NCBI GenBank assembly: GCA_031292515.1
Contig: JARLGZ010000254.1
Coordinates: 1 to 49,814, forward strand
Direction: 5' to 3'
Origin: Puia sp.
Lineage (GTDB): Bacteria; Bacteroidota; Bacteroidia; Chitinophagales; Chitinophagaceae
DNA length: 49,814 nucleotides
Numbering within the stretch: the first letter of the stretch is position 1; each line of letters begins with the position of its first letter. Under the pieces are notes generated by a model. The model had not been told where the DNA came from. It did not search any database and worked only from the letters and a program-made list of their open reading frames with translations. Below, in pieces: positions 1 through 49,814 of this stretch. A program made the translations under genes and the position numbers.

Positions 1-1265
<1,265 letters not shown>

Positions 1266-1456
1266 TAAATGAGTTTTGATCTGACTTTAATCTCTTTCAA
1301 AATTAACGTCGTGGATCTGTCGAATTTATTTCGCTAAATTAACCTTACCGTAAATGCTTAATTTACGTTGCTGTTGCTTCCAAACTTTCAAAGATCTTTC
1401 GGCTTTTTTTGCCGCCCGATTTCCGTTTCCATCTTTCGATTTTTTCGATCGGGTTG

Positions 1457-38214: not shown

Positions 38215-38243
38215 CACACCTTCTGAAAATCAGGAGACAGGAT

Positions 38244-38314
38244 TGCCCGATAGTATAATGGCAGTACAACTGATTTTGGTTCAGTTTGTCGAGGTTCGAA
38301 TCCTCGTCGGGCAA
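38244..38314 (+). tRNA. tRNA-Gln (anticodon UUG)
   Basis: Acceptor arms TGCCCGA and TCGGGCA, anticodon stem ACTGA/TCAGT with loop TTTTGGT giving anticodon TTG, T arm GAGGTTCGAATCCTC. CCA is not encoded; the structured element starts at the next base. Confidence 0.96.
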
Positions 38315-38432
38315 CAAGAGACCCCTCGCGACAGCGAGGGGTTTTGTTTTTCCCGGAAGCGGGAAGAGCTTGCTCTTCTAAGCGGACGGGGAAAACAAAA
38401 CCATTCCGGCGAAGCCGGAATGGGGTCTCTTG
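38315..38432 (+). repeat. structured inverted element behind tRNA-Gln, copy 1
   Basis: Outer arms CAAGAGACCCC (38315-38325) and GGGGTCTCTTG (38422-38432). Inside: hairpin A, CCCCTCGC/GCGAGGGG (38322-38341); an inner stem, GGTTTTGTTTTTCCCG (38340-38355) with CGGGGAAAACAAAACC (38387-38402); an apical hairpin, GAAGAGC/GCTCTTC (38363-38378); hairpin B, ATTCCGGC/GCCGGAAT (38403-38421). Read inwards from each end, both halves have the same plan: CAAGAGACC, a hairpin, then GGTTTTGTTTT. The first half is the tRNA terminator. Function unknown. Confidence 0.85.
38322..38351 (+). terminator. intrinsic terminator of tRNA-Gln(UUG)
   Basis: CCCCTCGC-GACA-GCGAGGGG followed by TTTTGTTTTT; it is the left half of the structured element. 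Confidence 0.9.
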
Positions 38433-38452: not shown

Positions 38453-38680
38453 GGATCACCGGAGGTCGCGAAGCGGACCGAAGGTAATCCTCCAGATTTC
38501 GTTAGGGGTTGAGGATCACCGAAGGTAATCCTCCAAAGGTCGCGAAGCGGACCGAAGGTAATCCTCCAGATTTCGTTAGGGGTTGAGGATCACCGAAGGT
38601 AATCCTCCAAAGGTCGCGAAGCGGACCTTCGGTTACCCTCAAGATTCCTCCGAAGGCCGCGAAGCGGACCTTCGGCAATC
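38453..38680. repeat. 74-bp tandem repeat array behind structured element copy 1
   Basis: The unit starting AGGATCACCGAAGGTAATCC repeats with a period of exactly 74 bp (38511, 38585), preceded and followed by partial units to about 38680. It consists of small hairpins with GAA loops (GGATcACC-GAA-GGTaATCC; GGTCGC-GAA-GCgGACC) and the spacer GATTTCGTTAGGGGTTG. The region from 38433 has no gene and runs up to the stop of the propeller-like gene. Confidence 0.85.
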
Positions 38681-38681
38681 C

Positions 38682-39731
38682 TCACCCGGACATCCTGAGC
38701 CTGAAAGTGGCGATATGCTTTTTGTATAAAGCAATAAGAATCCCGGAATCGATAAAGAGAGACTGGATATTGTCTTCCCCGATATTGGGAATGTAGAAAC
38801 TCCCCGTATAACGGCCATCGGGTACCCGGTAAATATCTACAACGCTGTTGTGCCGGAAATTTTCCGGGCTTTCATTGTCGGCCTTTAATTCGGAGATCAC
38901 GTACAAAAGGCCATTGCTTGCAAATGAATTCCTGATGATTGGAAAACGGGGCGTCACCGGAACAAGCTTTTGCTCGTAATCGTTCTTCAACTTTTTTATC
39001 CGGACAGGATTGTATCGTGTTGTGTCTATGGTATGTCCTTGATACAACAGGTTCAGATTGGTATCCAGGCAAAAAAATACGTTCTGGTAATATTGAAGAT
39101 AGAGTATCCGGTGGTAGGTAGAATCATAATTAAGAAGTCCATCCGTAGCAAATCCTCCATCTGCATCGTCTACCAGGGGATTTCGATGGGATATCAGGCC
39201 ATTTCGCAAATCGACGGTTTTAAAAACCTGTCGCATCGGGTCGTCATCAAAACCCCGTATCACTGCCAGGTCCTTTTCAAGACGGATCGAACGGGTAAAA
39301 ATCCCTTTTCCCAGTTTGATGGAATCGATGCCGGGTTGGTCGATCCCCGCCTTATAGAGAGTGGAGAGATTATTGGCAAACAAATAAACCTCGGGAGAAT
39401 CTACAATCAGTCCATTGGCCGCCTGTAATTTTTGCGTCAGGGGGATATTTAAAGTCAGGACACCCTTCTGTTCCAGCTTCCTGTCAAATGACATCAAATA
39501 TTGAGGATTTTGACCGGCCGTATAAATGCGATCGCCGGAAACACCGCATATGCGGACCAGCGGCGCCGGAATCGTTTTTTGGTCTTGTCCTTCTATCCAG
39601 TCTGTAAGCCATTTCCGGGCAAACCCGTTAGGCTTTGCATTGGGTGACCGGTTGAAATAAGCGAGTGAGGCCAGGATGATAACCGCCAACAGCAATAAAG
39701 CCCCTAATTTAAGTAAAACCTTTTTTTGCAT
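38682..39731 (-). CDS. exported or membrane-anchored propeller-like protein
   Basis: I set the start at MQKKVLLKLGALLLL, a signal anchor; the 77-residue longer frame overlaps the upstream peptide gene. The 349-aa product after the anchor is rich in strands with repeated motifs of the form 'G.RIYTAGQ..YLMSFD' and 'LLYVISEL', consistent with a beta-propeller similar to the BF3164/6-bladed lipoproteins found next to MauE-like and small peptide genes in Bacteroidota. That family label is an inference. Last gene of the MauE-like/peptide/propeller cluster, separated from the peptide gene by a strong hairpin. Confidence 0.65.
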   Translation of the reverse strand: MQKKVLLKLGALLLLAVIILASLAYFNRSPNAKPNGFARKWLTDWIEGQDQKTIPAPLVRICGVSGDRIYTAGQNPQYLMSFDRKLEQKGVLTLNIPLTQKLQAANGLIVDSPEVYLFANNLSTLYKAGIDQPGIDSIKLGKGIFTRSIRLEKDLAVIRGFDDDPMRQVFKTVDLRNGLISHRNPLVDDADGGFATDGLLNYDSTYHRILYLQYYQNVFFCLDTNLNLLYQGHTIDTTRYNPVRIKKLKNDYEQKLVPVTPRFPIIRNSFASNGLLYVISELKADNESPENFRHNSVVDIYRVPDGRYTGSFYIPNIGEDNIQSLFIDSGILIALYKKHIATFRLRMSG

Positions 39732-49517: not shown

Positions 49518-49588
49518 TGCCTGATAGTATAATGGTAGTACGACAGATTCTGGATCTGTTTGTCTTGGTTCGAATCCAGGTCGGGCAA
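49518..49588 (+). tRNA. tRNA-Gln (anticodon CUG)
   Basis: Acceptor arms TGCCTGA and TCGGGCA (one G-U), anticodon stem ACAGA/TCTGT with loop TTCTGGA giving anticodon CTG. CCA is not encoded. A -7-like TAACTTTG (49410-49417) lies about 100 bp upstream. Confidence 0.95.
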
Positions 49589-49704
49589 CAAGTGACCCGC
49601 AACGCAAGTTGCGGGTTTTGTTTTTTCCGGGAGCGGGGTGAGCTTGCTCACCAAAGCGGACGGGAAAAACAAAACCGCCCGATGAAATCGGGCAGGGTCA
49701 CTTG
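49589..49704 (+). repeat. structured inverted element behind tRNA-Gln, copy 2
   Basis: Outer arms CAAGTGACCC (49589-49598) and GGGTCACTTG (49695-49704). Inside, hairpin A is CCCGCAAC/GTTGCGGG, the inner stem is GGTTTTGTTTTTTCCGG with CGGGAAAAACAAAACC, the apical hairpin is GGTGAGC/GCTCACC, and hairpin B is GCCCGAT/ATCGGGC. Same plan as copy 1, different stem sequences. Followed by GTAATGCAAA, as in copy 1. Confidence 0.85.
49596..49626 (+). terminator. intrinsic terminator of tRNA-Gln(CUG)
   Basis: CCCGCAAC-GCAA-GTTGCGGG followed by TTTTGTTTTTT. Confidence 0.9.
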
Positions 49705-49753
49705 GGTAATGCAAAGCGGGCGGCTCACCGAAGGCGCGGAGCGCCGTAGGTAA

Positions 49754-49814
49754 TCCAGGTCGGGCAACAAGTGACCCGCAACGCAAGTTGCGGGTTTTGT
49801 TTTTTCCGGGAGCG
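49754..49814 (+). repeat. second tandem copy of tRNA-Gln 3' end plus structured element, partial
   Basis: From 49754 the sequence TCCAGGTCGGGCAACAAGTG repeats the tRNA 3' end and element start seen at 49575, an offset of 179 bp, and is identical up to the window edge. It implies a tandem array continuing beyond the window. Confidence 0.9.

Follow-up and report, generated by a model that had tools for sequence, protein, structure and literature searches.

The window, which is the whole stretch of 49,814 bp analysed here, comprises all of contig C121 of a 7.34-Mb genome of Puia, a genus of the Chitinophagaceae, in 285 contigs (G000), and it carries two tRNA-Gln genes, each of which is followed directly by a folded element with four arms. 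In the naming used here, P1 is the outer stem, P2 is the hairpin near the tRNA, P3 is the central arm with a T-rich/A-rich stem, an internal loop and an apical hairpin, and P4 is the far hairpin. R1 is a covariance model of the 58-nt central arm, built from eight copies of this genome. The features of the two units are the following:

38244..38315, + strand: tRNA-Gln(UUG), which anchors unit 1 (ARAGORN)
38315..38432, + strand: four-armed element 1 (118 nt), fold z -9.8
38318..38345, + strand: arm P2 and T tract of element 1, a sense terminator-like hairpin (pattern match only)
38343..38400, + strand: central arm P3 of element 1, with the conserved internal loop GAAGCG / AAGCGGA and a CUUG apical hairpin
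38343-38400: R1 core of element 1, E 1.1e-13 (this copy is among the rows that built R1)
38401..38423, - strand: arm P4 of element 1, an antisense terminator-like hairpin with a T tract (pattern match only)
38453..38490, + strand: hairpin GGATCACC...GGTAATCC of unit 1, the 3' arm of which starts the tRNA-3' repeat in other copies
38463..38684, + strand: tandem array of the unit 1 hairpin, with a 74-bp unit, 2.2 exact copies and diverged ones after these
49518..49589, + strand: tRNA-Gln(CUG), which anchors unit 2 (ARAGORN)
49589..49704, + strand: four-armed element 2 (116 nt), fold z -10.2
49594-49617, + strand, and 49695-49675, - strand: terminator-like hairpins of element 2 (pattern match)
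49617-49674: R1 core of element 2, E 2.3e-14 (this copy is among the rows that built R1)
49722..49756, + strand: hairpin GGCTCACC...GGTAATCC of unit 2, ahead of the tRNA-3' repeat (read from the sequence)
49752..49768, + strand: second tRNA-Gln(CUG) 3' end, AATCCAGGTCGGGCAAC (17 nt; first copy at 49573-49589; period 179 bp)
49765..49814, + strand: start of a second tandem element copy of unit 2, 100% identical to the first over 50 nt and cut by the contig end

The first-pass annotation had placed the same fold behind both tRNA-Gln genes, and these places are confirmed by the fold scores. The sense-strand minimum free energies of elements 1 and 2 are -74.1 and -70.8 kcal/mol, compared with shuffle means of -38.7 and -35.8, and none of 200 shuffles folds as well for either element. 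The antisense strands also fold (z -8.4 and -9.4 for elements 1 and 2), and both elements have one common plan of P1, P2, P3 and P4 on either strand. The paired changes noted earlier between the two copies, GAGA/TCTC versus GTGA/TCAC and GAAGAGC/GCTCTTC versus GGTGAGC/GCTCACC, are present in the sequence. When the whole window is searched with the Rfam covariance models, no described family is found above its gathering score for the fold; a known RNA family was rejected, as apart from tRNA there are sub-threshold matches only. The best of these is the Streptococcus SpF41 sRNA (48.8 bits versus a cutoff of 52, window 38240-38349). This match spans the tRNA and the terminator, and it may be, as a guess, that the Rfam entry is itself based on a tRNA-Gln gene with its terminator.

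The element has many relatives. A DNA search of the Puia genome finds copies behind tRNA-Pro, tRNA-Ser and tRNA-Leu genes and also away from intact tRNAs, and eight copies of the 58-nt P3 core from this genome can be aligned without gaps. The two sides of the P3 internal loop mostly read G(G/A)AGCG and (A/G)AGCGGA, and the apical hairpin has six pairs and a loop that is mostly CUUG or CUCG. The covariation claimed from two copies also holds beyond them: in the eight copies 13 of the 19 pairs vary on both sides, which is reached by none of 500 shuffles, and in 98 distinct rows all 19 pairs do so, with 94.7% of the cells pairing versus 68.2% when shuffled, although this larger alignment was fitted to the model and is biased toward pairing.

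The further copies that the earlier reading would call for were found by scanning with R1. The Puia genome has at least 17 places at E < 1e-3 among the 150 of 1071 candidates that were scored, including the eight that built the model and one (on C174) that may duplicate another (on C170). Matches are present in at least 16 of the 23 other genomes of the genus, in 1 of 15 genomes of other families (a weak match), in at least 36 of 396 genomes of the order and in at least 7 of 395 genomes of the phylum, three of the latter being from another family of the class; in the order and phylum scans 14 candidates per genome were scored. The copy counts are lower bounds because part of the candidates was scored. 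An exact pattern scan of named genomes gives one record, Puia dinghuensis. No title or abstract describing such an element was found in the open-licence literature of PubMed Central. Two exact patterns find no copy in viral contigs and one 153-nt query finds none in plasmid and phage records, searches that diverged copies would escape; with these results a phage or plasmid carrier was set aside. Five contigs of the Puia genome (C121, C39, C59, C170 and C174) terminate in or beside element copies, and its copy number is therefore probably underestimated. The window contig starts with a partial bacterial 16S rRNA gene (window 1-1266, strand -); with this gene at one end and the tandem element copy at the other, both contig ends look like repeat breaks. 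Contig C39 begins with the repeat of unit 2 and bears a degenerate element copy.

The association with tRNA genes is general, and it is not an association with tRNA-Gln. An intact tRNA or tmRNA gene directly precedes 78 of the 129 matches examined, where directly means on the same strand and at most 75 nt upstream; the 129 include weak ones (E up to 0.05) and at least one (L149) that is unlike an element. These 78 follow tRNA-Ser (17), tRNA-Leu (16), tRNA-Pro and tRNA-Arg (11 each), tRNA-Gln (9), tRNA-Val (6), tRNA-Glu (3), tRNA-Lys (2) and, once each, tRNA-Cys, tRNA-Met and tmRNA, which makes eleven kinds when tmRNA is counted. In another family of the class, five fetched copies follow tRNA-Ser, tRNA-Phe and tRNA-Pro. 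Among the 51 matches that are not adjacent to an intact tRNA, 3 repeat a core, and 44 of the other 48, as judged by eye and with two doubtful cases, follow a whole, broken or altered tRNA 3' end. A Gln-specific element is thus rejected, given the ten tRNA kinds and tmRNA that serve as anchors, with tRNA-Phe in the further family. This is a real, covarying and widespread family of elements anchored at tRNA 3' ends.

The first-pass annotation missed, besides this independence of Gln, the tandem repeat of unit 2 and the second copy of the tRNA 3' end past the fold, which is the decisive feature. Past the fold there is a spacer that, judged by eye, resembles its counterparts behind the same kind of tRNA in other species (with Gln, for example, it reads GGGTAATGCAAA, and with Arg(ACG) GGGTAAGGCCAATGCG). 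The spacer usually leads to a hairpin of the type GGATCACC...GGTAATCC, the 3' arm of which merges into the second tRNA 3' end, and the 5' arm of this hairpin tracks the tRNA (GGAT with ATCC, GAGAT with ATCTC, by eye). The tRNA-3' repeat is found at 15 or more of 18 positions in 39 of the 78 tRNA-adjacent copies, compared with 0 of 78 when a randomly chosen downstream stretch from another tRNA family is used as the control. The distance between the two tRNA-end copies is 155-210 bp in 37 of these 39, the extremes being 139 and 243. The other 39 copies score below this threshold, window element 1 included, where the remnant of the tRNA end is AATCCTC (7 nt) only; the Gln(CUG) unit of the window shows the complete design, with 17 nt and a period of 179 bp. 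Even for a gene with GATTC (tmRNA) or GAGTC (Lys) the repeat begins with TAATC, which places the border between element and tRNA letters near T60/C61. Behind the tRNA-Leu(CAG) gene of contig C197 of the same genome (L054, about 955-835, strand -), the hairpin GGATCACCG...GGTAATCC is present three times, and so the hairpin also multiplies on its own.

Filled and empty sites can be compared for tRNA-Leu(GAG), a gene found in 30 of 33 genomes of the genus. By eye, 23 of these 30 loci are without an element; among the remaining seven, four have at least one element, two have a degenerate copy, and the last breaks off at a contig end within a possible element. In one genome (G012) the gene is followed by an element, by a second tRNA 3' end 158 bp on and then by a terminator, TTAGAGCCTTG...CAAGGCTTTTTTATT, and in G017 and G014 a terminator of this kind lies directly behind the gene, with no element. 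When G012 is aligned with these two, the aligned blocks overlap by exactly 17 bp, the tRNA 3' end being present once in the empty and twice in the filled site. This comparison is direct evidence of the insertion of 158 bp flanked by a 17-bp repeat, at one locus only, with a downstream likeness that consists of the terminator stretch of about 60 nt only. Six of ten empty relatives match the terminator of G012 well (score 50 or more), one matches partially (38) and three are unlike it (17-21). Behind the same gene, with matching upstream flanks, G006 has one element and G005 a different one, in three tandem copies that are nearly identical. The row of G005 (contig C26, L146, 1528-1915, strand -) consists of three 165-bp units with 99% identity and then a degenerate fourth, and it is a recent expansion. 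Two contigs of the Puia genome, C223 and C279, share one unit (95% over 211 nt), and their identity begins inside the tRNA 3' end and ends about 8 nt past the repeat. At tRNA-Gln(UUG), 7 of 19 rows with flank carry an element; G419 is without one, but it matches upstream only and not downstream, and an empty site was not obtained there. The idea of a mobile repeat linked to tRNA-Gln is kept in part: the element has the behaviour of a mobile repeat linked to tRNA genes, and a link with Gln is not supported.

Several genomes have elements at intervals of about 1-5 kb behind a tRNA, and the intervals contain genes. Such cargo is closed by a second type of site, a tRNA 3' end whose T-loop is enlarged (for example GGTTTGAAATCCGTCCAATCCGGGTCAC for Arg and GGTTCGAAAACTGTCCCTCTTGCCCCGCAA for Ser). 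Pfam matches in or beside these rows include short-chain dehydrogenases, AraC regulators, AbiEii, PIN, ORF6N, KilA-N, AAA_14/DUF4143, FRG, an Xre-type antitoxin and the dihydrodipicolinate synthase family. The scan covered 40 proteins, some from outside the rows and four from the window, and none of the 40 matches a recombinase family.

The reading that we prefer, with a probability of about 0.6, is that of a gene-less mini integrative element at tRNA and tmRNA 3' ends that is mobilised in trans and carries two inward-facing terminators, its four-armed fold perhaps being a recombination signal. The fold would be the tRNA-proximal part of a small unit, usually of 155-210 bp, that inserts at the tRNA or tmRNA 3' end. 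Such a unit would bring a spare tRNA 3' end and in this way leave the tRNA intact, a copy of about 15-17 nt then being found at the far end, ahead of the old terminator. The insertion may proceed by conservative site-specific recombination near the border of T-loop and T-stem, with a recombinase that acts in trans and is probably a tyrosine recombinase. The sense hairpin would substitute for the displaced terminator of the tRNA, and the antisense hairpin would halt transcription that arrives from the opposite direction. The part recognised as folded DNA by the recombination machinery could consist of the long-range stems, the conserved AGCG/AGCGGA loop and the apical hairpin of nearly fixed size. 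A circle of 165 bp is short for conventional recombination.

The terminator part of this proposal is based on GC-rich hairpins with T tracts, which occur on both strands of both window elements and are predicted to terminate transcription. That the half near the tRNA is its terminator, as had been stated, is in agreement with the terminator-like hairpin and T tract on the sense strand, a match to a loose pattern that occurs 5 times in the element 1 region versus 1.1 expected and also matches elsewhere in that region. The far half was described as an inverted terminator-like copy; it is indeed terminator-like on the antisense strand, but an inverted copy is not supported, since the side hairpins differ in sequence and complementarity is limited to the outer and inner stems. 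G-T pairs, taken as a sign of the strand on which pairing is kept, were compared in the 51 of 94 copies that are four-armed on both strands. They favour the sense strand in P3 (71 versus 8, p 3e-8) and the antisense strand in P4 (46 versus 19, p 0.04) and P1 (64 versus 33, p 0.05), and the sense excess in P2 is not significant (11 versus 4, p 0.15). This polarity fits two putative convergent terminators, and the suggestion of a bidirectional insulator is supported in part.

These same observations agree with another view, in which ordinary convergent tRNA terminators evolve in place, and tandems and tRNA-3' repeats arise via slippage or unequal crossing-over. A shared A-tract/T-tract would then give part of the outer and inner pairing, and the copies in G005 resemble a local tandem expansion. 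We consider this view unlikely, as it does not account for the insertion ahead of an existing terminator in G012, for the presence of one unit on both C223 and C279, for the geometry of internal loop and apical hairpin that is conserved over genera, or for the likeness of the spacers by tRNA kind across species (by eye). Long outer stems are also not needed for termination, and a helix of at least 10 bp in the outer stem is found in 36 of 94 copies, compared with 3.3 per 94 after swapping the partners and 1.2 per 94 after shuffling. A lenient test of the four-arm fold has modest specificity, being passed by 71 of 94 real, 152 of 470 shuffled and 223 of 470 partner-swapped sequences. As neither the conserved loop nor the enriched outer stem is required for termination, we infer that some protein reads the four-armed form, probably as DNA, when the element is mobilised.

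A structured RNA with its own function, forming the 3' trailer of the tRNA, is quite improbable. In its favour, folding is better on the sense strand for 84 of 94 copies and, when the central arm is taken by itself, for 91 of 94, in copies that were chosen by a sense-strand model; G-A closed tetraloops are also common (35 of 75 in P2 and P4). The outer stem and the far hairpin, however, lean antisense, and orthologous tRNAs of relatives carry different elements or none (the 23 of 30 tRNA-Leu(GAG) loci, by eye), and for these two reasons the structured 3' RNA proposed earlier is less likely; moreover, no Rfam family is found, and 27 of the 75 tetraloops are GNYA and only 8 are of the RNA-typical GNRA type. 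Of the 54 triloops of P4, 44 are GNA, 34 of these being GAA; DNA hairpins with GNA and GNNA loops are stable. Least probable is that a casposase, an integrase of the Cas1 type, transposes the element and duplicates the tRNA 3' end as its target site: the exact 15-17 bp repeats and the rows that extend beside the tRNA resemble CRISPR or casposon insertion, and casposons too have their site at or beside tRNA 3' ends and make short direct repeats, but this mechanism was rejected since no Cas1 homologue is found in 8 of the 12 carrier genomes searched, this Puia genome included (4 have one), and, in addition, the hairpin arm matches the T-stem of the target (by eye) and the TAATC start of the repeat is unlike the letters of the GATTC and GAGTC genes, so that the first repeat bases derive from the element.

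The mini integrative element mobilised in trans is supported by the filled and empty locus, the many tRNA kinds, the tandem rows, the cargo rows and the covariation; the cargo without a recombinase, the lack of a clearly co-occurring one, the half of the tRNA-adjacent copies below the repeat threshold, the single filled and empty locus, the negative outcome of the viral, plasmid and phage searches, the shortness of a 165-bp circle and the weak outcome of the lenient fold test speak against it. Mobility by site-specific recombination together with a double-terminator role is the best-supported mechanism, and since the breakpoints are precise, the insertion idea is directly testable. The 3' ends of tRNA genes are classic landing sites of mobile DNA, the known passengers being large and bringing an integrase. 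The Puia element resembles tRNA islands and CIMEs (cis-mobilizable elements, recombinase-less island derivatives) in that it targets the 3' part of tRNA and tmRNA genes, leaves the tRNA intact, has a tRNA-3' copy at its far end and accretes in tandem. Islands are usually kilobases long and have an integrase, whereas the Puia element is usually 155-210 bp, is gene-less and has a covarying four-armed body with one plan for tRNA genes of eleven kinds and for tmRNA. REP/BIME and ERIC-like families are small, gene-less, palindromic and dispersed, with compensatory pairs that preserve the structure, and these properties are shared by the Puia element; it differs from them in having the tRNA 3' end as its site and a tRNA-3' repeat on its far side.

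The rows of cargo are similar to integron cassettes, as they are short cassette rows with toxin-antitoxin- and abortive-infection-like cargo and folded palindromic sites, and as there is no recombinase inside. These rows start at a tRNA gene, unlike those of integrons, and have two tRNA-3'-like sites in place of attC. A more far-reaching and tentative possibility is that tRNA genes of Bacteroidota serve as docking sites for a system that resembles an integron without being one, in which a recombinase acting in trans reads the four-armed site and the tRNA-3' mimic and captures and shuffles gene cassettes behind the tRNA 3' end, the fold terminating transcription and sparing the tRNA. A gene-less unit of about 165-190 bp that targets tRNA genes of eleven kinds and tmRNA, supplies its own terminators and arranges cargo genes in rows would be a minimal system in which to study how a tRNA is targeted, how recombination depends on structure and how the tRNA transcript is protected, and it would account for the origin of part of the accessory genes in these bacteria.

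Those recombinases of the carriers that approach the integron-integrase model all score below its cutoff. The Puia genome has 14 PF00589 matches, none of which is at the places of the arrays. In an NCBIfam scan of 10 of these recombinases (one as a part only), a single protein attains the XerD cutoff, and the best score with the integron integrase model TIGR02249 is 129.5 bits versus a cutoff of 265; among 8 proteins from related loci the best score is 191.6, also below the cutoff. For the genomes searched, no recombinase stands out by eye as co-occurring with the element, and G281 and G008 have only three PF00589 matches each. One PF00589 recombinase is found beside an element in G011. XerC/integron-integrase-like proteins start about 1.25 kb behind a tRNA-Met element core in G401 (L239, 5018-6172, strand -) and about 0.6 kb behind one in G295 (L240, 9604-10551, strand -); no tRNA-Met end repeat was found at these two loci. 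The protein at L240 is followed by an IS91 transposase and another recombinase. Paired tyrosine-recombinase genes are present in three element carriers (G000:C210:141380-142718, G007:C27:394133-395468 and G352:C3:4095-5505). Where scanned, the paired proteins are XerC/D-like; the pair is absent from some of the carriers searched, and the side-by-side recombinases are a possible trans-acting pair.
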